From the NCBI GenBank assembly GCA_028823445.1, contig JAPKBH010000001.1:124001-188000 (forward strand): 64,000 nucleotides of DNA, in the 5' to 3' direction. Numbering within the stretch: the stretch's first letter is position 1; each line of letters begins with the position of its first letter. Below, piece by piece: positions 47,802 to 58,709 of the stretch. Source of the stretch: Acidimicrobiales bacterium. Lineage in GTDB: Bacteria; Actinomycetota; Acidimicrobiia; Acidimicrobiales; MedAcidi-G1. The notes under the pieces were generated by a model. That model was given only the letters and a program-made list of their open reading frames with translations, was not told the DNA's origin and did no database searches. Made by a program: the position numbers and the translations under genes.

Positions 47802-48974
47802 ATGCACGAAGCAGTAATCGTAGACGCTGTACGAACACCGGGAGGACGCCGAAATGGCCGACTCAAAGACTGGCACCCAGCAGCGCTGGCTGCCCATGTA
47901 CTTAAGGCCTTAGAGGAGCGCAACAACCTTGACCCTGCTTTGGTAGACGATGTGATCATGGGCTGTGTAATGCAGGTCGGGCAACAGTCGCTCAACATTG
48001 GCCGCAGCGCCGTGCTCGCCGCTGGATGGCCCGAATCTGTTCCTTCAACCACCGTGGATCGCCAGTGTGGTTCAAGCCAACAAGCTATTCACTTTGCCGC
48101 CCAAGGTGTTATGGCCGGAGCCTACGACATAGTGGTGGCCGCCGGCGTTGAGTCCATGAGCAACGTGCCCATGGGGTCTTCGGTAGTGGGTGGAGAAATG
48201 GGCCACCCCTTTCCCCCGGCCATGTTGGAGCGCTACAGCGAAACCGGCCTCCCTCCGCAGGGCATTGGTGCCGACATGATTTCCGACGAATACAACATCA
48301 GTCGGGAAGAGCTTGATGCTTTTGGAGCTCAATCTCAGCAACGAGCCGAACAGGCCACCGCAGAGGGCCGCTTCGAAAACGAGATCATTCCTGTGCCTAT
48401 TGAAATTGATGGCGTAACCGAAATGCACACCGTAGACGAGGGCATCCGCCCCGGTACCACTGCTGAAAAACTCGGAGGGTTAAAACCTGCTTTCAAAGAA
48501 GACGGCCGTATTACCGCCGGCAACTCCTCACAAATTTGTGACGGAGCATCCGCCATCTTGATTATGAGCGCTGAAAAAGCCGCCGAACTGGGTTTGAAGC
48601 CTCGGGCCCGTTTTCACACCTTTGCTTTGGCTGGTACCGACCCAGTGACCATGCTTAAGGGCCCTATTCCGGCTACCGAAAAAGTCTTTGAGCGCAGCGG
48701 CCTGACCGTTGAAGACATTGACTTGTTTGAAATTAACGAAGCATTTGCTTCGGTTGTCTTGGCCTGGCAAAAAGAAACCGGCGCTGACCTGAGCAAAGTG
48801 AACGTCAACGGCGGCGCTATTGCTTTGGGGCATCCTTTGGGTTGCTCGGGGGCCAAGCTTATGACGACTTTGCTTAATGAACTTGAACGTACCGACGGCC
48901 GTTACGGTCTGCAAGCCATGTGTGAAGGCGGTGGCTTAGCTAATGCCACCATTATTGAAAGGATTGGCGCCTAA
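47802..48974 (+). CDS. Acetyl-CoA acyltransferase (thiolase)
   Basis: A 390-residue thiolase. The acyl-accepting Cys is in TVDRQCGSSQQAIH, with the second site at GGAIALGHPLGCSGAKLM (His) and the final Cys in AMCEGGGLANATIIE. DLFEINEAFASVVL is also diagnostic. It cleaves 3-ketoacyl-CoA with CoA, or runs in reverse. The overall look is of the actinobacterial FadA group that includes steroid-type thiolases. AAGGAGAAA precedes the ATG. The SDR and crotonase genes follow directly, giving three of the four beta-oxidation steps. Confidence 0.93.
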   Translation: MHEAVIVDAVRTPGGRRNGRLKDWHPAALAAHVLKALEERNNLDPALVDDVIMGCVMQVGQQSLNIGRSAVLAAGWPESVPSTTVDRQCGSSQQAIHFAAQGVMAGAYDIVVAAGVESMSNVPMGSSVVGGEMGHPFPPAMLERYSETGLPPQGIGADMISDEYNISREELDAFGAQSQQRAEQATAEGRFENEIIPVPIEIDGVTEMHTVDEGIRPGTTAEKLGGLKPAFKEDGRITAGNSSQICDGASAILIMSAEKAAELGLKPRARFHTFALAGTDPVTMLKGPIPATEKVFERSGLTVEDIDLFEINEAFASVVLAWQKETGADLSKVNVNGGAIALGHPLGCSGAKLMTTLLNELERTDGRYGLQAMCEGGGLANATIIERIGA

Positions 48975-49753
48975 TGCCACGTATGAACCTTGAGGGGTCT
49001 TCCTCAATCATTACCGGAGGTGCCTCGGGTATCGGCGAGGCCAGCGCCCGCCAATTGGCTGCCGCTGGATCTCGAGTGGTCATTGCCGACCTCAACGAAG
49101 AACGGGGCACCGAAGTCGCTTCAGAACTCGGCGGTTTGTTTGTCAAGTGCGACGTTTCCAGTACCGAAGACGCCGACGCTGCGGTAGCAGCAGCGAGCGA
49201 AATGGGCCCGTTGCGGGCCTTGGTGAACTCGGCAGGACTTGGTTTTGCCGGACGCACTATTGATCGTAATAACCAACCCATGGATCTTGAAAAGTTCCGG
49301 TTTGTTATAAATGTCAACCTGATTGGCTCGTTCAACATGTTGAGCCGAGCCGCCGGCGCTATGGCCCAGACCGAACCGGTAGACGACGACGGCAGCCGAG
49401 GGGCAGTAGTAAATATGGCTTCGGCGGCCGCTTTTGATGGCCAAATTGGCCAGTGTGCCTACTCGGCTTCTAAGGGCGGCGTAGTCGGCATGACCCTGCC
49501 CATCGCCCGTGACCTCTCGGTAGTCGGCATCCGAGTAAACACCGTGGCTCCCGGTCTGATTGACACCCCCATTTATGGCGAAGGTGAAGCAAGCGAGCAA
49601 TTTAAATCTCATCTCGGTCAATCGGTATTGTTTCCCAAGCGTTTGGGTAGCGGCGAAGAGTTGGCCTTTATGGTGATGGATCTCATTACTAACCCCTACA
49701 TGAATGGCGAAACCATTCGGGTAGATGGCGGCATTCGCATGCCACCGAAATAG
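48974..49753 (+). CDS. SDR-family 3-hydroxyacyl-CoA dehydrogenase (HSD17B10-like)
   Basis: A 259-residue short-chain dehydrogenase with TGGASGIGEASARQL (NAD site, acidic IADLNEE after strand 2), NSAGLGF, catalytic Ser in MASAAAFDG, and YSASKGGVVGM. The end VDGGIRMPPK and the FKSHLGQSVLFPKRLG region match the type II 3-hydroxyacyl-CoA dehydrogenase branch. It oxidises a 3-hydroxyacyl-CoA to the ketoacyl-CoA cleaved by the thiolase gene that overlaps it by one base. Steroid or branched-chain substrates are equally possible. Confidence 0.88.
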   Translation: MPRMNLEGSSSIITGGASGIGEASARQLAAAGSRVVIADLNEERGTEVASELGGLFVKCDVSSTEDADAAVAAASEMGPLRALVNSAGLGFAGRTIDRNNQPMDLEKFRFVINVNLIGSFNMLSRAAGAMAQTEPVDDDGSRGAVVNMASAAAFDGQIGQCAYSASKGGVVGMTLPIARDLSVVGIRVNTVAPGLIDTPIYGEGEASEQFKSHLGQSVLFPKRLGSGEELAFMVMDLITNPYMNGETIRVDGGIRMPPK

Positions 49754-49761
49754 GAGGCGCT

Positions 49762-50523
49762 ATGTCTGAAAACACTGCAGTACTTACCGAAAAACGTGGC
49801 CGGGTCTTACTTATTACCTTGAACCGGCCCGAGGCCATGAACTCCATCAACGGTGACTTAGCCAACGGTCTTTGGGATGCCGTACAAATGCTCAACGACG
49901 ATCCGGGTTTAACCGCCGGGGTACTCACCGGTAACGGGCGAGGGTTTTGCGCTGGCATGGACCTCAAAGCTTTCTTGCGGGGTGAAAACATTGGCCCCTT
50001 TATGGAATTCGTTAAAGAAGGAGCGCAAAAGCCTTTGATTGGTGCCATCGAAGGCTTTGCCTTAGCTGGTGGCTTGGAGTTGGCTTTGAGCTGCGACCTT
50101 CTGGTGGCTTCGGAAGGCGCCAAGATGGGCATTCCTGAAGTAGGGGTAGGCCTTTTTGCGGCCGCCGGTGGCGTACTGCGCTTGTCTAGCCGCGTCGGCC
50201 ACGGCAAAGCAATGGAAATGGCTATCACTGCCGACCCGATCTTGGCTGAAGAAGCTTTGCAGTTCGGGCTGATTGCCCGCATGACCGAAAAAGGTGGAGC
50301 GGTAGAAGGAGCACTCAAGCTTGCGGAACGAGTCGCCCAAAATGCTCCTTTGGCTGTGGCCGCTTCGAAGAAACTGGTGCAAGCTGCTTCTTCAGGGGCC
50401 AGCGAAGAAGAACTCTGGGCGTTGAACACGGAAATGCAAATGAAAGTCTTTGTTTCCAATGACTCTAAAGAAGGCCCCAAAGCCTTCGCCGAAAAACGCC
50501 CACCCGAGTGGACCGGTACTTGA
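49762..50523 (+). CDS. Enoyl-CoA hydratase/isomerase (crotonase family)
   Basis: A 253-residue crotonase. Its oxyanion hole residues lie in FCAGMDLKAFL and FALAGGLELALSCDLL, and the catalytic-loop Glu is in GIPEVGVGLFAAAGG. Typical Ala-Arg boxes (NRPEAMNSINGDL) open the sequence. It would hydrate the enoyl-CoA. The ATG follows TAGGAGGCGCT after a short gap from the SDR gene. Together with thiolase and SDR it completes a beta-oxidation spiral apart from the acyl-CoA dehydrogenase, which is not in this window. Confidence 0.9.
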   Translation: MSENTAVLTEKRGRVLLITLNRPEAMNSINGDLANGLWDAVQMLNDDPGLTAGVLTGNGRGFCAGMDLKAFLRGENIGPFMEFVKEGAQKPLIGAIEGFALAGGLELALSCDLLVASEGAKMGIPEVGVGLFAAAGGVLRLSSRVGHGKAMEMAITADPILAEEALQFGLIARMTEKGGAVEGALKLAERVAQNAPLAVAASKKLVQAASSGASEEELWALNTEMQMKVFVSNDSKEGPKAFAEKRPPEWTGT

Positions 50524-50527
50524 GCCT

Positions 50528-51331
50528 TTAACCCTCCGGGGTTAACAACATCGCCAACTGTCGCGACTGAGCGACCAGCGCCCCGGTGGAGTCCCAGAGG
50601 CGACCGCTTTCAATCATGCGGCCATCATGAAGATCTTCGGTAACAAATTCTCCTTGCACCCAGCCAGGTGCAGGGAGTCGGCGTATATGTACCGTTAACT
50701 CAATGGTAGGCACCCAGCCTATTTTTCCCAGCAAGCCAAAAATAGGTGGCGGGAAGGCGTCGGCAAACAGCACCAGGCCTAATGGGTCGGGTTGGCGGCC
50801 ATCTAAGAACCGAATCCACCCGGAGGTTTCGGCTTTTTCCGCTGCTCCGGCTTCTGCTTGATCGGGGTGGATACGCATTTCGATGCGGTTCTGAATAGCC
50901 AATTCTACGCCTTGTTCAAGGCCTGAGCGGGACCGGCATTGGTCGGGTCCTGGTATTTCGGGGGCGGGGATACTCACTTGAGGTGCTTGATCAGAACCGG
51001 CGCCCAAGGTGCCAAAGGCCGCCAAAACCTCTACTCGGGTTTTTTCTGCTTGTTCTAACGAGCCCCGCAACGTGCTGATGTTGCGGCCCGAGCGGACCAG
51101 AGAGCCATGCGCTAGGGCCGAGGCGTTGCCGCTTCCGGGACGTAAATAGTGTGCGGTCACGCTGAGCGGGTCGTTATGTGGGCTCAAGGTGCTCAAGCCG
51201 CGTAGCAAGGGAGCCAACAAGTAGCCCCCGTTGGGGTTGTCGCCAATATTCCATTGGTCGCTTAAGGTCAGCGACCACTCCCCCGGGCTTTGCTCGGTGA
51301 GTTGGGTTTCGGTGTCAAATTGAAAAGCCAC
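50528..51331 (-). CDS. Acyl-CoA thioesterase family protein (double hotdog, TesB-like)
   Basis: A 267-residue double-hotdog thioesterase. The N-terminal hotdog has WNIGDNPNGGYLLAPLLRG (the usual N-P-N-G-G-Y motif) and VTAHYLRPG. The C-terminal hotdog ends in SGRLWDSTGALVAQSRQLAM, matching the W-D-x-x-G-x-L-V-A-x-x-x-Q block. It would cleave acyl-CoAs to free acids. It lies 57 nt downstream of the aldehyde dehydrogenase gene on the same strand, so it may belong to that operon. Convergent with the crotonase gene (4 nt apart). Confidence 0.82.
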   Translation of the reverse strand: MAFQFDTETQLTEQSPGEWSLTLSDQWNIGDNPNGGYLLAPLLRGLSTLSPHNDPLSVTAHYLRPGSGNASALAHGSLVRSGRNISTLRGSLEQAEKTRVEVLAAFGTLGAGSDQAPQVSIPAPEIPGPDQCRSRSGLEQGVELAIQNRIEMRIHPDQAEAGAAEKAETSGWIRFLDGRQPDPLGLVLFADAFPPPIFGLLGKIGWVPTIELTVHIRRLPAPGWVQGEFVTEDLHDGRMIESGRLWDSTGALVAQSRQLAMLLTPEG

Positions 51332-51388
51332 AAAGCCCCTTGGTTCTTGAAATACAGGTGGGCGTACCTTAGGGGACGGCTGGCCGGT

Positions 51389-52864
51389 TTAACGCATCAC
51401 GAAAGGATTAGCCATGGGTTCTTTTGAGGTGTTGATCCACACGGTTTTGGTGCGGGTGTAGTCGTAGATGGCGTCGATGCCGGCTTCTCGCCCGTAACCA
51501 CTTTGCCCAAATCCTCCGAAAGGAGCCACCGGAGAGATCGCTCGGTAAGTGTTGACCCAAACGATGCCGGCGTGCAGGCCAGCGGCTACCCGATGGGCTC
51601 GCCCTAAGTCGTTGGTGAACACACCAGAACCCAGTCCAAAGACCGTGTCGTTGGCCATAGCGATGGCTTCTTCTTCCGTACTGAATTTGATGACTGACAT
51701 GACGGGCCCAAAAAGTTCTACCTGGGTACTGAGAATTTCTTGGCTGGGGCAAGACACTACGGTGGGTTCAAAATACCAGCCCTGGTCAAACCCTTCGGGG
51801 CGTTGACCGCCGGCCATAATCTCGGCACCTTGGGCCACTGATTCACTCAAGGTTTTTTCAATGTTGTCTCGCTGCTTTTTTGTGGCCAACGGCCCAACTT
51901 GTGTAGTTGCATCAAGCGGGTCGCCAATTTGCACCGCTCGGGCACGTTGGGTAACTTCTTCCATAAAGCGGTCATAGATGCCTTCTTGAACAAAGACTCG
52001 GGAACCAGCGACGCAACTCTGACCGGACGCTCCAAAGTTGCCCGCTACTGCACCGTTAACGGCCGCCTCAAAGTCAGCATCGTCAAAAATCAAGATGGGT
52101 GATTTGCCACCCAGTTCTAACGAAACTGGGGCAAAGTTTTGGGCTGTGTTGGCCACCACCTGGCGGGCGGCATCGATGCCCCCGGTGAAAGAAACTTTGC
52201 TGACCAACGGGTGACTGGTGAGGGCCCTGCCACAGGGCTCGCCAAAACCGGTGATGAGGTTAAACACTCCCGGGGGAAAACCTGCCTGGTCAACCAATTC
52301 GGCAAACGCTAAAACAGGGGCCGGGGCTTCTTCTGAAGATTTAATCACCACGGTGTTGCCGGCCGCCAAAGCAGGAGCGGCTTTGGTGGCGGTGAGAAGC
52401 ATTTCGGCATTCCAAGGCACAATGCCGGCCACTACCCCAATGGGCTCACGGGTAGTAAACACATGCAGATTTGGTTTGTCGATAGGCAAGGTGCTGCCTT
52501 GCAGTTTGTCGGCCAAACCACCGTAGTAGCGGTAGTACTCGGCTACATAAGCTGATTGCCCACGAGTTTCGACGGCTAATTTACCGCTATCGGTGGTTTC
52601 CACGGAACCTAAATGTTCCGAATGTTCAGCCAGCAAATCGGCCAAAACAAAAAGTAGCTTTCCCCGCTCGGTGGCCGTCATGTCTGCCCACGGGCCCTCG
52701 TGGAGCGCTCGATGAGCTGCTTTAACAGCACGGTCTACGTCATCTTCGGTGGCCGCTGGAGCGGTAGCCCAAGCCTCACCCGTCGCCGGATTGATAGTTT
52801 CGAAGGTCGCTCCGTCGGAGGCCGAACAAAACTCGCCGTCGATGTACATTAGATAATCGTGCAT
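51389..52864 (-). CDS. NAD(P)-dependent aldehyde dehydrogenase
   Basis: A 491-residue ALDH with all active-site parts. The Asn is in VPWNAEMLL, cofactor contacts are in VIKSSEEAPA and SFTGGIDAARQV, general base Glu is in LELGGKSPIL, nucleophile Cys is in GQSCVAGSR, and the GPVMSVIKF block is also present. It oxidises an aldehyde to the acid. Position in the LLM-AA_synth-hydrolase operon suggests a semialdehyde produced by ring or chain cleavage. It overlaps the hydrolase gene by 16 nt. Confidence 0.93.
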   Translation of the reverse strand: MHDYLMYIDGEFCSASDGATFETINPATGEAWATAPAATEDDVDRAVKAAHRALHEGPWADMTATERGKLLFVLADLLAEHSEHLGSVETTDSGKLAVETRGQSAYVAEYYRYYGGLADKLQGSTLPIDKPNLHVFTTREPIGVVAGIVPWNAEMLLTATKAAPALAAGNTVVIKSSEEAPAPVLAFAELVDQAGFPPGVFNLITGFGEPCGRALTSHPLVSKVSFTGGIDAARQVVANTAQNFAPVSLELGGKSPILIFDDADFEAAVNGAVAGNFGASGQSCVAGSRVFVQEGIYDRFMEEVTQRARAVQIGDPLDATTQVGPLATKKQRDNIEKTLSESVAQGAEIMAGGQRPEGFDQGWYFEPTVVSCPSQEILSTQVELFGPVMSVIKFSTEEEAIAMANDTVFGLGSGVFTNDLGRAHRVAAGLHAGIVWVNTYRAISPVAPFGGFGQSGYGREAGIDAIYDYTRTKTVWINTSKEPMANPFVMR

Positions 52865-53643
52865 GGGGTGATCTCCTTATTTAAAAAGATGAGTAATGAG
52901 GTAGTAAACAAAAAGGGGTCTTCCCACAGGGGAAGGTGATGCAAGTCCGGCAGTATTTGGGCTTCACCGTAGGGCAAAGCAGCGGCGAGAGCTTCGCTCA
53001 TTTGCGGGGTTGACCCGGCATCAAGGGCTCCCGTCATGACGAGCGTGGGTGCGCTAACCCGGGAGAGTCCATTGGGCACCAGAGGGTCGCCGTCTAAAAA
53101 GCATTGGTAAGCCGCCAGGTAACCGTCATGGTCGGTGGTGCGTAAACGGGCGGAAATTTTGGCCGCCAGTTTAGGGTTTGCCTCTTGCCAAGCCGGAGTA
53201 AACCAGCGGTCCATGGCCAGTTGCGCCACTACCGCCATGCCGTCTTGGCGGCAGAGTTCTAAGCGCTGCTGTTGGGCAGAGTGCTGCTCGGCGCTGCGTT
53301 CGAACACTGTGTTAAGCAGCGCCACTCGACGAACCAGTTCCGGCTGGCGTAAAGCTAACGCCAAAGCGATACTGCCGCCTAGTGAAAGGCCAGCCACATC
53401 CAGTTTTTCACCTTCGGCCACTGCAGCGACTTCTCGGGCCTGGCGCACGAAGTCTTCTATGGTCACCGGCCCCCCGCTGCCAGAAGTCTGCCCATGGCCT
53501 AAGAGGTCGTAACGGATAACCGTGCGCTCATCTTGGAGTTGCTCCATGGCGGGGTCCCACATAGTGTGATCAAGCCCCACCCCATGGATGAGCAGCAACG
53601 GCGGGCCTTGGCCCTCCATACGAATATAGGTTTGACCACTCAC
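52849..53643 (-). CDS. Alpha/beta hydrolase (3-oxoadipate enol-lactonase-like)
   Basis: A 264-residue hydrolase. The oxyanion segment is LLIHGVGLDHTMWD, the nucleophile Ser is in GLSLGGSIALAL, an acidic residue is in MTGALDAGSTPQ, and His is in LPDLHHLPLWE. The layout and length match PcaD/BphD-like enzymes acting on enol-lactones or C-C bonds. In the operon it sits between AA_synth (4 nt overlap) and ALDH. It would hydrolyse a lactone, ester or N-formyl-type intermediate; which one is not known. Confidence 0.87.
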   Translation of the reverse strand: MSGQTYIRMEGQGPPLLLIHGVGLDHTMWDPAMEQLQDERTVIRYDLLGHGQTSGSGGPVTIEDFVRQAREVAAVAEGEKLDVAGLSLGGSIALALALRQPELVRRVALLNTVFERSAEQHSAQQQRLELCRQDGMAVVAQLAMDRWFTPAWQEANPKLAAKISARLRTTDHDGYLAAYQCFLDGDPLVPNGLSRVSAPTLVMTGALDAGSTPQMSEALAAALPYGEAQILPDLHHLPLWEDPFLFTTSLLIFLNKEITPCTII

Positions 53644-54227
53644 TGCGGGTCGATTCCCATTTCTTCCATGTCCTGGTAACGGTTACCGATGCGATGATGC
53701 GGCCGCCCACCTACCGAAGCGCCAATAGCCACCACAATCTCATCGGGTCCAGGTGCATCGGCGACAGTCATTTCCAGCGTGAGGTAATGGGAGCGCCAAC
53801 CCGGGTCTTCTTTGTGCATCATGGGGATACTCACCGTGGCTCCCGGGCCGCCTCGGGTATTGGTAAACGACAAGTAAGCCGTACCGTTCACGGCGTCGCG
53901 AAAAACGTTGCCAAAACGCAAGGTATGGATCAATGCCGACCCATGCTCTACCTCGCCGCTGGTTCCTACCATGGAGGCTTTTCCGTAGGCCTCGATGGCC
54001 TCTCCCCCGCCGGTTAATGCCGTGAGGCGAGGCACCAAGACCTCGCCTAAAGCCGGGGCGGTCGCCAATATTTCGGGGCGCAGATCTTCAACGAACCCTT
54101 GGCCGGCCCACGGGTTGGACAACACCGCCGCTACTCCGTACAGGTGCAACGAGGGGGCGGCGACTTTTCCGCCTTCAATGAGCACTTCTTCGTGGTGCGC
54201 TACGACTTTACGTATTTCTAAACTCAT
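53640..54227 (-). CDS. Amino acid synthesis (AA_synth, DUF1185/PF06684) family protein
   Basis: The ATG at 54227 sits on the ATGA shared with the LLM gene stop and gives 195 residues; the frame continues upstream without a sensible start. The sequence MSLEIRKVVAHHEEVLIEGG, GVAAVLSNPWAGQGFVEDL, AYGKASMVGTSGEVEHGSAL and the GASVGGRPHHRIGN ending match the AA_synth family. Its biochemical function is not established, despite the name. The invariant His and Gly segments hint at a small-molecule enzyme. Context puts it in the same catabolic sequence as the LLM oxygenase. Confidence 0.82.
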   Translation of the reverse strand: MSLEIRKVVAHHEEVLIEGGKVAAPSLHLYGVAAVLSNPWAGQGFVEDLRPEILATAPALGEVLVPRLTALTGGGEAIEAYGKASMVGTSGEVEHGSALIHTLRFGNVFRDAVNGTAYLSFTNTRGGPGATVSIPMMHKEDPGWRSHYLTLEMTVADAPGPDEIVVAIGASVGGRPHHRIGNRYQDMEEMGIDPQ

Positions 54228-55378
54228 CAGTTTGTCTCCTCGGAAAATTGGGGCATCACTTCTTCCGTGAAACGATGGACGCTGTCCATTACCGTACGGT
54301 GGTCCAGACCGGGGAAGTTTGACCACACCAACAGGGATTGAAGATTAAGTTTTTCCTTCATCTCATGGATTTTTTCAGCCACATAATCAGCGGTGCCAAA
54401 CAACATATTGCGCGGGTGGAGCCACTGGTAGCTAAGAAGATCAAGTTTACCGGGGGTCTCGGGCAACTCTTCTCCCGGATAACGGTGGTTGCTTAGGCCC
54501 CGAAAATGGCATACCCACTCCATGTAGCGCAAAAAAGCCTGGCCGGCCAGTTCTTCGGCTTGGGCCATGGTCTCGGTCACAAACATGTCACGGACCAAGG
54601 TAACCCCTTCACCCATTGGCACGTCTTGGCCTTGGGCCTGTGAAGCCGTCTCGCTATAGAGTTCAAAGCGAGAGACCATGGCATCGGTGGGTGGAATCCA
54701 GAACATGCCTTGAAGCCCGTTACGAGCGGCAAACTCAATAGAAGGAGCCGAGTCAATAACCTGCCAAAGCGGTGGGTGCGGGGATTGGAAGGGCTTAGGT
54801 ATTACCGAGAGTGCCGTAATATGTCCAGTTTCGGGGTCGGTATTGTTGCTGACAGGTGGGCTCATGGCGTGATTAAAGGTGACACCAGGGTAAGGGAACT
54901 CAAAAAACTCGCCCTTAAAAGAAAAGAATTCATCAGTCCAGCAGCGGCGTATGACCTCTAAGGTTTCTTCAAATAAGGCACGGTTGACCGCCGGGTCCCG
55001 AACATCGGCCGCCGGGTTCATGTTGACCGTCTCTCGTGGGTAGACCCCCCGTCCTACCCCTACTTCAAGGCGGCCCGCGCTCATGTGGTCCAACATGGCG
55101 AGGTCTTCAGCCATCTGGATCGGGTGGCGAAAGGTAATAATATTGGCCGCTTGGCCGATACGAATTTGTTCAGTATGGGCCGCTAGGTCAGTGCTCATGA
55201 GCACGGGGTTGGGGCAAACTTCTAGCCCCTCGTGCCCAAAGTGATGTTCGGTAGTCCAAATGGATTCCCACCCGTTTTGGTCGCAATACTGGGCGATTTC
55301 TCGCCCTTCATCTATAACTTCGTAAAAGGGCTTACGAAGGCCCCAATTATTTTGGTTCAGAAAATACCCGAATCGCAT
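54227..55378 (-). CDS. LLM-class flavin-dependent monooxygenase
   Basis: The ATG at 55378 gives 383 residues starting MRFGYFLNQNNWG. It is a luciferase-like TIM-barrel enzyme using FMNH2. Visible blocks are WESIWTTEHHFGHEGLE, IGQAANIITFRHPIQMAEDLAMLDHMSAGRLEVGVGRG, RRCWTDEFFSFKGEFFEF and the C-terminal FGTADYVAEKIHEM. These match bacterial luciferase/alkanal monooxygenase-like proteins. No flavin reductase gene is adjacent. It should insert oxygen to split a ring or chain; the substrate is unknown. It is first in the operon behind a good promoter. Confidence 0.88.
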   Translation of the reverse strand: MRFGYFLNQNNWGLRKPFYEVIDEGREIAQYCDQNGWESIWTTEHHFGHEGLEVCPNPVLMSTDLAAHTEQIRIGQAANIITFRHPIQMAEDLAMLDHMSAGRLEVGVGRGVYPRETVNMNPAADVRDPAVNRALFEETLEVIRRCWTDEFFSFKGEFFEFPYPGVTFNHAMSPPVSNNTDPETGHITALSVIPKPFQSPHPPLWQVIDSAPSIEFAARNGLQGMFWIPPTDAMVSRFELYSETASQAQGQDVPMGEGVTLVRDMFVTETMAQAEELAGQAFLRYMEWVCHFRGLSNHRYPGEELPETPGKLDLLSYQWLHPRNMLFGTADYVAEKIHEMKEKLNLQSLLVWSNFPGLDHRTVMDSVHRFTEEVMPQFSEETN

Positions 55379-55457
55379 GCTTGCGCTTTCTATCGAGGAA
55401 TGACGGACATGGGCGCACACCTTTTATTCTCGCTGCCTGCCCGACTCGAGTGAGCAC

Positions 55458-55486
55458 AAGGTACAGCAAAAATTTTCGAAGGTCAA
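55458..55486 (-). promoter_or_regulatory. Sigma-70-like promoter of the LLM operon
   Basis: On the minus strand TTGACC (55481-55486) and TACCTT (55458-55463) are 17 nt apart. The -35 box overlaps the end of the lldD-like gene. The predicted transcript starts near 55450, leaving a leader of about 70 nt before the LLM ATG. The spacer is AT-rich. Confidence 0.55.
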
Positions 55487-56739: not shown

Positions 56740-57741
56740 CTAATACATGATGGTTCGCGTCAAATGGTGAGGCCAAAAGGTGTCGTGATAAGTGTTCCAA
56801 AAGCGAAAGTCCACCTGAGGTACGACAATTTGTTGATCAGGGGGCCGGATCTCATTGATGGCGTCGGTCAATAATGCCGTGGCATAAACCGTGTGGGCAC
56901 GAATCTCGATTTCCTGGTCGCTGTCACGCTCAATAATTTGGCCTGCCATAATCTTGGCCTCCAACTCAGGCGCATAAGAAATCAGACCCATAAGGCGTAG
57001 CCCCACTGGCACGATGTAGTCGGCGAAGGCTGTCATGTCTTCAAGATCTTTGAGCGCCCATTGGCCGCTACGAAACAAAGCCCGATGCAGCGACCACAAA
57101 GTAAGTTGAGGCAATTTATGAAACTCAACTTTTTGCCCGTGGTACAGACTTGAATCATCGAAGCGCGGAAATTCTTGGGCCATGCGTTCCATCAACCCCT
57201 CACCGTCGGCATACATTGCTGGCGCACAGGAGCGCACAAACGCATGAAAAGAACCCTGATGCCGGTCAACCAGGGTGGCACCTATTTCATTCAAAATTTC
57301 CACCCGTTCTTCCAACATGGGGAGTTCCACGTTGCCGGCAAACAAACGTGCCAGATCATCTCGGGTTACTGAGGCCAAATGTTGGCCGCTAAAAATATCT
57401 TGCCCCGCAGCCAGCGCTTCGTGGATGCGAGCAAACATGCCTTCGGTGTCAGACCAGGTTTGCCCTTGGTAGTCCACGGCAAACTTAACGCTGGTGGCGA
57501 AATCAGTAAAAGCAAAGTTGAGCGCCCCAATAAAAAAGTTCACGTCAAACAACAGGTCCGGGTCTTTGCCCATATCGAAGGGGCCGGTACCGGTGTCATC
57601 AGGGATGGAAAAATGCTCGTAGGCCATCCAACTGGCCACTTCTTGAACCTTGTCAAGGGAAGTAGAAACATGGGTGGATTGTTCGATAACGGGCAGCACC
57701 GATTTCAGTACGGGTTTTTGCCATTTGCTACTGGTTTGCAT
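56740..57741 (-). CDS. Queuosine salvage protein (Qng1/DUF2419-like nucleosidase)
   Basis: A 333-residue protein of the DUF2419/Qng1 family, which removes the base queuine from queuosine 5'-phosphate so that tRNA can be modified again. Matching blocks are VLPVIEQSTHVSTSLDKV, VNFFIGALNFAFTDFA, ELPMLEERVEILNEIGATL, GSFHAFVRSC, MTAFADYIVPVGLRLMG and a final IDF-like VDFRFWN with HHLTRTIMY. In known family members the Asp of the FADY segment is close to the active site. The family is better known from eukaryotes, but bacterial members are described. It is divergent, 74 nt apart, from a PfkB kinase that could make the phosphorylated substrate. Confidence 0.8.
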   Translation of the reverse strand: MQTSSKWQKPVLKSVLPVIEQSTHVSTSLDKVQEVASWMAYEHFSIPDDTGTGPFDMGKDPDLLFDVNFFIGALNFAFTDFATSVKFAVDYQGQTWSDTEGMFARIHEALAAGQDIFSGQHLASVTRDDLARLFAGNVELPMLEERVEILNEIGATLVDRHQGSFHAFVRSCAPAMYADGEGLMERMAQEFPRFDDSSLYHGQKVEFHKLPQLTLWSLHRALFRSGQWALKDLEDMTAFADYIVPVGLRLMGLISYAPELEAKIMAGQIIERDSDQEIEIRAHTVYATALLTDAINEIRPPDQQIVVPQVDFRFWNTYHDTFWPHHLTRTIMY

Positions 57742-57815
57742 TTGGTCTCCATTTTGTGAGCAGAATCAACCATACTGACATGAACGAACGTCGCTCCGGG
57801 CGACCAAAGGAAACC

Positions 57816-58709
57816 ATGACCCACGAAACTCAACCAACCTTGGCTGTTGTCGGCTCCACCATGATCGATTTGGTTGCTTATGCCGAGGTGCTACCCGAAG
57901 ACGGCGAAACCCTGCTCGGTGAAAAGTTTCAAATGGGCTTCGGCGGTAAAGGTGCCAACCAAGCAGTGATGGCCAAACTGATGGGAGCCGAGGTAGCCAT
58001 GGTTAATTGTTTGGGCGACGACGACTACGCCCAGATGTACCGTAAAAACTTTGCCGACTACGGCATCAATACCGACCATGTTTACACCGCTCCGGGGGCC
58101 AGCGGCGTGGCCCCTATTTGGGTCGACGGACAAGGCCATAACCGCATAATCATCATCCCGGGCGCTAATCATGCCTTAACTGCACAGCAAGCAACCGCCG
58201 CCATTGAAGCGTTGGCTCCCCTTCAGGTAGTTATCGGCCAGTTTGAGATCCCGCAAGAGGTCACCGCCGCAGGGTTTGCTGCGGCACAAAAATTTGAGGC
58301 AACCACCGTGTTGAACCCCGCCCCGGCCAGTGCGTTATGCCCGGCACTACTGGCCGTTACCGATTGGTTGATTCCCAACGAACATGAGTTTGCCCTGTTG
58401 GCGGGGAGTGAACCTTCTGACACCGCCCTCTTGAGTTTCGCCACGCAGACCGCTACCCGACTGTTGGTTACCTTAGGTGAAGCAGGGGTGGCTTTAGCCG
58501 TCGATGGTGAGGTCATACGATTGCCGACGACCCGTGTTGAAGCTATTGATACCACTGGGGCCGGCGATGCCTTCGTGGGGGCTTTTGCCTACGGATTAGC
58601 CGCGGGCCTTGCCCCAGTAGCAGCGGCCCAACTAGGTATGGATCGGGCCACAGATTCGGTAACCAAACTGGGCACCCAATCTTCCTACGCCCCGCTTTCA
58701 CCTCGTTAG
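57816..58709 (+). CDS. PfkB-family carbohydrate/nucleoside kinase (ribokinase-like)
   Basis: The ATG at 57816 follows AAAGGAAACC and gives 297 residues. PfkB signatures are the N-terminal GFGGKGANQAVMAKLMGA and the C-terminal DTTGAGDAFVGAFAYGLA, which holds the catalytic Asp and anion hole. LNPAPASALCPAL and IPNEHEFALL match ribokinase. It phosphorylates ribose or a nucleoside with ATP. Next to the Qng1-like gene, the appealing alternative is a kinase for queuosine, giving the Qng1 substrate. Plain ribokinase remains fully possible; if it is ribokinase, it may take up ribose released by salvage. Confidence 0.88.
   Translation: MTHETQPTLAVVGSTMIDLVAYAEVLPEDGETLLGEKFQMGFGGKGANQAVMAKLMGAEVAMVNCLGDDDYAQMYRKNFADYGINTDHVYTAPGASGVAPIWVDGQGHNRIIIIPGANHALTAQQATAAIEALAPLQVVIGQFEIPQEVTAAGFAAAQKFEATTVLNPAPASALCPALLAVTDWLIPNEHEFALLAGSEPSDTALLSFATQTATRLLVTLGEAGVALAVDGEVIRLPTTRVEAIDTTGAGDAFVGAFAYGLAAGLAPVAAAQLGMDRATDSVTKLGTQSSYAPLSPR

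Follow-up and report, generated by a model that had tools for sequence, protein, structure and literature searches.

We analysed a putative catabolic operon of an Acidimicrobiales bacterium (assembly GCA_028823445.1, contig JAPKBH010000001.1), located at positions 50528-55378 of a 64,000-nt stretch of DNA. The whole of this stretch is called the window, and coordinates given without a locus name are positions in it. Five genes, all on the minus strand, lie where the initial annotation had placed them:

54227..55378, minus strand: luciferase-like monooxygenase (LLM) gene (383 aa; PF00296, 5.2e-45)
53640..54227, minus strand: DUF1185/AA_synth gene, TgnF-type (195 aa; PF06684, 3.7e-66)
52849..53643, minus strand: alpha/beta hydrolase (ABH) gene, PcaD/TgnD-like (264 aa; PF00561)
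51389..52864, minus strand: aldehyde dehydrogenase (ALDH) gene, in the TgnC position (491 aa; PF00171, 2e-167)
50528..51331, minus strand: TesB-type acyl-CoA thioesterase gene, probable fifth member (PF13622 and PF20789)

The overlaps proposed for the four core genes were confirmed as 1, 4 and 16 nt (LLM/DUF1185, DUF1185/ABH and ABH/ALDH junctions respectively), and 57 nt separate ALDH from TesB. Sequence comparisons suggest, with a probability of about 0.6, that these genes form a catabolic operon working like the trigonelline (Tgn) ring-opening pathway, the oxygenase having been replaced by a member of another LLM clade.

A search at the protein level with DUF1185 as query gave 80 loci, which were annotated by tblastn. 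The complete order LLM-DUF1185-ABH-ALDH was found at 16 loci of Acidimicrobiia and one alphaproteobacterium (the window, the same-genus genome G208 (L143), L006, L007, L009, L010, L011, L012, L014, L017, L018, L019, L020, L022, L025 and L081), with the LLM cut by the contig end in L011. L081 is an alphaproteobacterial single-cell genome, outside the phylum (LLM, 55% identity). At L004 the contig ends after the ABH gene. Core junctions in the relatives are mostly overlaps of 1, 4 and 4 nt, and the recurrence of the same overlapping order in many Acidimicrobiia and in the alphaproteobacterium indicates that the arrangement is more than chance. Conservation of the genes together, on which the initial annotation had staked its proposal, was therefore observed. 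In a class-wide sample of 296 Acidimicrobiia genomes the window-type LLM was present in five, beside ABH in all five and beside DUF1185 in four.

Trigonelline is a plant and algal compound. TgnA/TgnB reportedly open its ring to give the hydroxybutyrolactone aldehyde MFMB, and TgnC is said to oxidise MFMB to MFMS. TgnD reportedly hydrolyses MFMS to succinate semialdehyde, methylamine, formate and CO2, and the last step is ascribed to TgnE, said to be aided by a conserved hypothetical protein. Clusters of the form DUF1185-ABH-flavin reductase-LLM (345 aa)-ALDH were found in Roseobacter, Rhizobium, Mesorhizobium, Sinorhizobium plasmids and Acinetobacter. A GntR regulator usually lies close by, and some of the clusters also have a BCCT betaine transporter. 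In PLSDB, the TgnB-type LLM occurred in 326 records and the close DUF1185 protein in 333, with nearly the same tally of genera. The Acinetobacter junii cluster holds a second ALDH of the GabD type (best match succinate semialdehyde dehydrogenase, 1.9e-197), as the Tgn pathway requires, so its first ALDH would have the TgnC role. Once this second enzyme was found, the window ALDH was disfavoured as a TgnE (succinate semialdehyde) enzyme. The composition of the Acinetobacter, Sinorhizobium and Roseobacter clusters matches the Tgn set, in which TgnA/TgnB are named as the ring-opening step (PMC8269262) and the conserved helper protein is named TgnF, a homologue of HcdD (PMC7913881).

The downstream half of the window operon is closely related to these clusters. 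The DUF1185 protein is 56-62% identical to the Tgn-cluster proteins and forms one clade with them (Shimodaira-Hasegawa approximate likelihood ratio test, SH-aLRT, 100), with distant DUF1185 paralogues outside. The ALDH is 54-58% identical to the Tgn-cluster ALDHs, again in one clade (SH-aLRT 99), the other ALDHs of the window's genome falling outside; it carries GQSC at 281 and LELGGK at 249. These two proteins have the features of a TgnC-position ALDH and of a TgnF-type DUF1185 protein. The latter keeps GEVEHG (E92, H95) and the C-terminal R179; in the solved DUF1185 structure BB2672, the GExEHG motif and a C-terminal Arg line a cavity (PMC2954203).

The hydrolase is 28-36% identical to the Tgn-type hydrolases, and residues S87, D208 and H236 together with R116, R127, R146 and W147 are invariant in the window-type and Tgn-type proteins; shared residues are also found in PcaD, and the closest enzyme is 3-oxoadipate enol-lactonase. 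This likeness, together with the TesB thioesterase among the neighbours, would suit a different route. There the LLM would be a Baeyer-Villiger enzyme or another oxygenase with a carbon ring or a lactone as its substrate; lactone opening would fall to the PcaD-like hydrolase, and oxidation of the aldehyde acid to ALDH and DUF1185. The module would then have been recruited for a 4-carbon semialdehyde or hydroxybutyrolactone intermediate and not for an N-heterocyclic starting compound. We consider such a route unlikely, given the tight clade that DUF1185 and ALDH share with the Tgn-type proteins and the replacement of one LLM type by the other across genomes (see below).

In phylogenetic trees, which have some long branches and unsure deeper joins, the window LLM formed a group with L081 and the remaining Acidimicrobiia copies (84/94 support), joined next by two LLMs of Peribacillus and Sulfitobacter plasmids (98/97). 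The TgnB-type LLMs formed a separate clade (100/99), and a second tree with more rows concurred. The initial annotation had suggested a ring-opening set like those known for pyridines and trigonelline; the DUF1185 and ALDH clades and the hydrolase residues bear out the downstream half of this proposal, but the LLM lies outside the TgnB-type clade, and the ring substrate is therefore not readable from it. The LLM of an A. crystallopoietes plasmid cluster (28% identical to the window LLM) sits on a long separate branch. A literature search for the window-type LLM found no published work on it. Besides L081, the nearest LLMs from outside the Acidimicrobiia are those of the Peribacillus and Sulfitobacter plasmids (L117:5944-9633 and L118:6001-9974). 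Their neighbours, a lactonase-type gene of the metallo-beta-lactamase fold and genes for riboflavin synthesis, make up an uncharacterised set with them.

A structure model of the LLM, built on an alignment of the window and fetched-locus proteins only, had a predicted local distance difference test score (pLDDT) of 75 and a predicted template modelling score (pTM) of 0.78, and was weak at about residues 150-198. Its fold was nearest to flavin mononucleotide (FMN) luciferase-type monooxygenases, namely RslO1 7bip (template modelling scores 0.73/0.84), diketocamphane monooxygenase and luciferase, and the nearest chains in a sequence search against solved structures were also enzymes of this type. 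Both PF00296 and the fold thus fit an FMN-dependent luciferase-like monooxygenase, and neither sequence nor fold points to the F420 or alkane groups that the initial annotation had named as a refuting outcome. The best NCBIfam model was TIGR03619, of the F420 subfamily, at 98.8 bits, far below its cut-off of 166.9. This match would fit an F420-using reductase or dehydrogenase, in an operon carrying out an aldehyde-forming conversion unrelated to ring opening. Such an enzyme is very improbable, considering that the nearest chains and folds are FMN-dependent and that the distant plasmid relatives have riboflavin genes or a gene for an NAD(P)H-dependent oxidoreductase as neighbours.

The distribution of the two LLM types among genomes was complementary. 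Fourteen Acidimicrobiia genomes carry DUF1185 and ALDH, some of them with ABH, and no LLM beside these genes. The window-type LLM was also absent elsewhere in these 14 genomes, the few matches being 33-36% paralogues. By contrast, a TgnB-like LLM was present at another locus in 13 of the 14, with identities of 37-41% in most (relative to the Roseobacter type), 33% in one and a partial match in one; in at least seven of these cases the unlinked gene stands beside an ABH or thiamine-diphosphate enzyme gene. Among eight genomes with the window-type LLM there was a single, partial TgnB-like match (1/8 vs. 13/14, Fisher p = 4e-4; p values are indicative only, because the genomes are related to one another). 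The TgnB-like LLM is rare in the class sample (4/296), which makes 13 of 14 a strong enrichment. Two genomes (G184 and G244) have a TgnB-like LLM without a close DUF1185 protein. This complementary distribution suggests that the two LLM types are interchangeable, and the simplest reading is that they are alternatives feeding one DUF1185/ALDH module. Genomes with DUF1185 and ALDH only had been considered as a counterexample to the pathway; this objection was dropped in view of the TgnB-like LLM elsewhere in 13 of the 14. At three loci (L192:5897-9500, L194:3681-7236 and L196:3378-6997) the TgnB-like LLM adjoins both an ABH and a thiamine-diphosphate enzyme of the acetolactate synthase family, an enzyme not called for in the known trigonelline route.

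Several observations weigh against a Tgn-like function. Identity between the window LLM and the TgnB-type LLMs is no more than 24-27%, and 31 positions are near-fixed for different residues in the two types; the substrate of the window LLM may therefore differ from that of TgnB. As originally reported, no flavin reductase adjoins the operon, the sole PF01613 reductase of the genome being on another contig (C35), and no PF01613 protein was seen in the alphaproteobacterial genome of L081, whose assembly is only 0.9 Mb. Neither does a betaine transporter adjoin the operon, and no close GabD-type dehydrogenase was found in the window's genome (best 32-36%). The arginines of the hydrolase also align in the PcaD enol-lactonase, so they fit an acidic substrate without proving that of TgnD. 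Two loci (L015 and L016) have no adjacent ALDH, and G220 has LLM-ABH-ALDH without DUF1185. Finally, the link to Tgn rests on cluster composition and on papers, and not on the Tgn sequences of strain ADP1. As the TgnB-type LLM, the flavin reductase within the cluster (TgnA) and the GabD-type dehydrogenase (TgnE) were looked for and not found, the window operon is not counted as a strict Tgn member.

The different residues fixed at the 31 positions would also suit an enzyme that opens another N-methylated pyridinium betaine, the LLM clade then reflecting a different position of the carboxylate on the ring. Homarine is the abundant marine candidate: it is far more abundant than trigonelline in seawater particles, had no known degradation pathway in a 2021 survey, and was judged unlikely to be acted on by TgnA/TgnB (PMC8269262). 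However, the window-type and TgnB-like LLMs exclude one another, which speaks for a single substrate, and the conservation of ALDH and DUF1185 suggests a common aldehyde intermediate, while opening of homarine would lead to a different carbon skeleton. We regard the opening of a betaine other than trigonelline by this operon as distinctly unlikely. A broader proposal is quite unlikely: an undescribed marine pathway would take an abundant N-methylated ring compound other than trigonelline (homarine being the obvious candidate) through the Tgn downstream enzymes, with the window-type LLM as its oxygenase.

In our analysis, the most likely substrate of the Tgn-like route is trigonelline or a similar N-methylated pyridinium betaine; trigonelline itself is a tentative choice, possible but short of probable. 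Judged from homology, four steps are proposed. First, the LLM, with FMNH2 from the one unlinked flavin reductase of the genome, would insert oxygen and open the ring of the betaine, most simply trigonelline, to an aldehyde acid that can exist as a 5-hydroxy-butyrolactone. Oxidation of this aldehyde to the acid would be the task of the TgnC-type ALDH, possibly with assistance from the DUF1185 protein. The PcaD/TgnD-like hydrolase would then cleave the resulting enamide diacid, releasing a C4 semialdehyde together with CO2, formate and an amine. A semialdehyde dehydrogenase encoded elsewhere would complete the route.

DUF1185 had been described as a family without a defined reaction, which is not wholly so: a stimulating effect on the oxidation of succinate semialdehyde by TgnE has been reported for TgnF, which is homologous to HcdD, a DUF1185 protein (PMC7913881). 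DUF1185 stays with the ALDH in nine loci lacking an adjacent LLM or ABH (L003, L005, L008, L021, L024, L027, L029, L030 and L034), and its retention with a TgnC-type ALDH after the oxygenase and hydrolase moved suggests involvement in the aldehyde step. Our hypothesis is that the protein acts on an aldehyde acid, possibly by ring opening of the cyclic hydroxybutyrolactone form.

Other DUF1185 genes were seen in different surroundings. Distant DUF1185 proteins of Acidimicrobiia are encoded beside ALDH and amidohydrolase genes or beside hydroxyisobutyrate dehydrogenase. Both G000 (C21:5-592, L144) and G208 (C36, L161) have a second, distant DUF1185 gene that shares a 4-nt overlap with a gene of the 3-hydroxyisobutyrate dehydrogenase type, in another semialdehyde-forming context. 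Four close DUF1185 genes are near osmolyte-type genes (L052:7001-9072, L039:5823-7600, L006:2879-5690 and L081:3124-11643). These neighbours include a DddP dimethylsulfoniopropionate (DMSP) lyase above the NCBIfam cut-off, a glycine-betaine-monooxygenase-like Rieske protein, and an EutA-like protein (below the cut-off) accompanied by PhyH and M24. The acyl-CoA ligase and acyl-CoA dehydrogenase genes beside DUF1185 in L081 may bear a weak resemblance to those of DMSP-demethylation enzymes.

One further feature was considered at the 5' end of the operon:

55458..55486, minus strand: candidate promoter TTGACC-17-TACCTT, 5' of the LLM gene and overlapping the end of the FMN_dh gene

The -35 candidate TTGACC (55486-55481) matches five of six positions and is followed by a 17-nt spacer. 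The -10 candidate TACCTT (55463-55458) matches three of the six of TATAAT and fits the looser TAnnnT. The two hexamers and some 55 nt after them are identical in G208, but a consensus promoter scan did not report the pair, and what had been called a good promoter is better rated as only fair. The leader of about 55 nt at 55404-55464, from the candidate -10 to a possible upstream ATG, is identical in G208 despite differing surroundings and may hold a regulatory site. Rfam gave no RNA element over the operon. At the other end, the proposal of TesB as a possible fifth gene is plausible: the TesB and ALDH genes overlap by 4 nt in four relatives (L006, L007, L010 and L020), which makes TesB a likely operon member. 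The upstream FMN_dh and queuosine-salvage genes were rejected as members, since they adjoin the LLM only in the same-genus G208 and not at other loci. Thiolase, short-chain dehydrogenase/reductase and enoyl-CoA hydratase genes and a divergent PfkB-type gene (56740-58709 and 47802-50523) flank the same site in the MedAcidi-type L003 and L005, where the operon site is without LLM, ABH, FMN_dh and queuosine-salvage genes.

If the Tgn-like function is correct, two distantly related kinds of LLM can open the ring of N-methylated pyridinium betaines and replace each other within one class of marine bacteria, and surveys based on TgnB alone would miss degraders of the window type. If instead a homarine-type compound were the substrate, the gene would be of interest as a marker for its turnover by ocean Acidimicrobiia. 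Split and fused arrangements also offer a natural test of DUF1185 function.

Among known systems, the hcd operon for 7-hydroxycoumarin of Pseudomonas mandelii 7HK4 likewise contains a DUF1185 protein (HcdD) with an unproved helper role in ring degradation; its first step is carried out by an alcohol dehydrogenase-type enzyme, and the available part of the source describes no set of LLM and TgnC-type ALDH (PMC7913881). The tgn cluster of Acinetobacter baylyi ADP1 and its homologues share with the window operon the combination of LLM, ABH, TgnC-position ALDH and DUF1185. The window operon differs from this cluster in its LLM, which comes from another clade, in being without a flavin reductase, GabD-type TgnE, GntR regulator and betaine transporter, and in its gene order (LLM-F-D-C in the window vs. 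F-D-A-B-C in tgn). The split arrangement of Acidimicrobiia (genomes of L003, L024, L027, L030 and others) has DUF1185 and ALDH of the same clade (69-82% identical), while its oxygenase is TgnB-like and unlinked to the DUF1185-ALDH pair, standing with an ABH and often adjoined by a thiamine-diphosphate enzyme.
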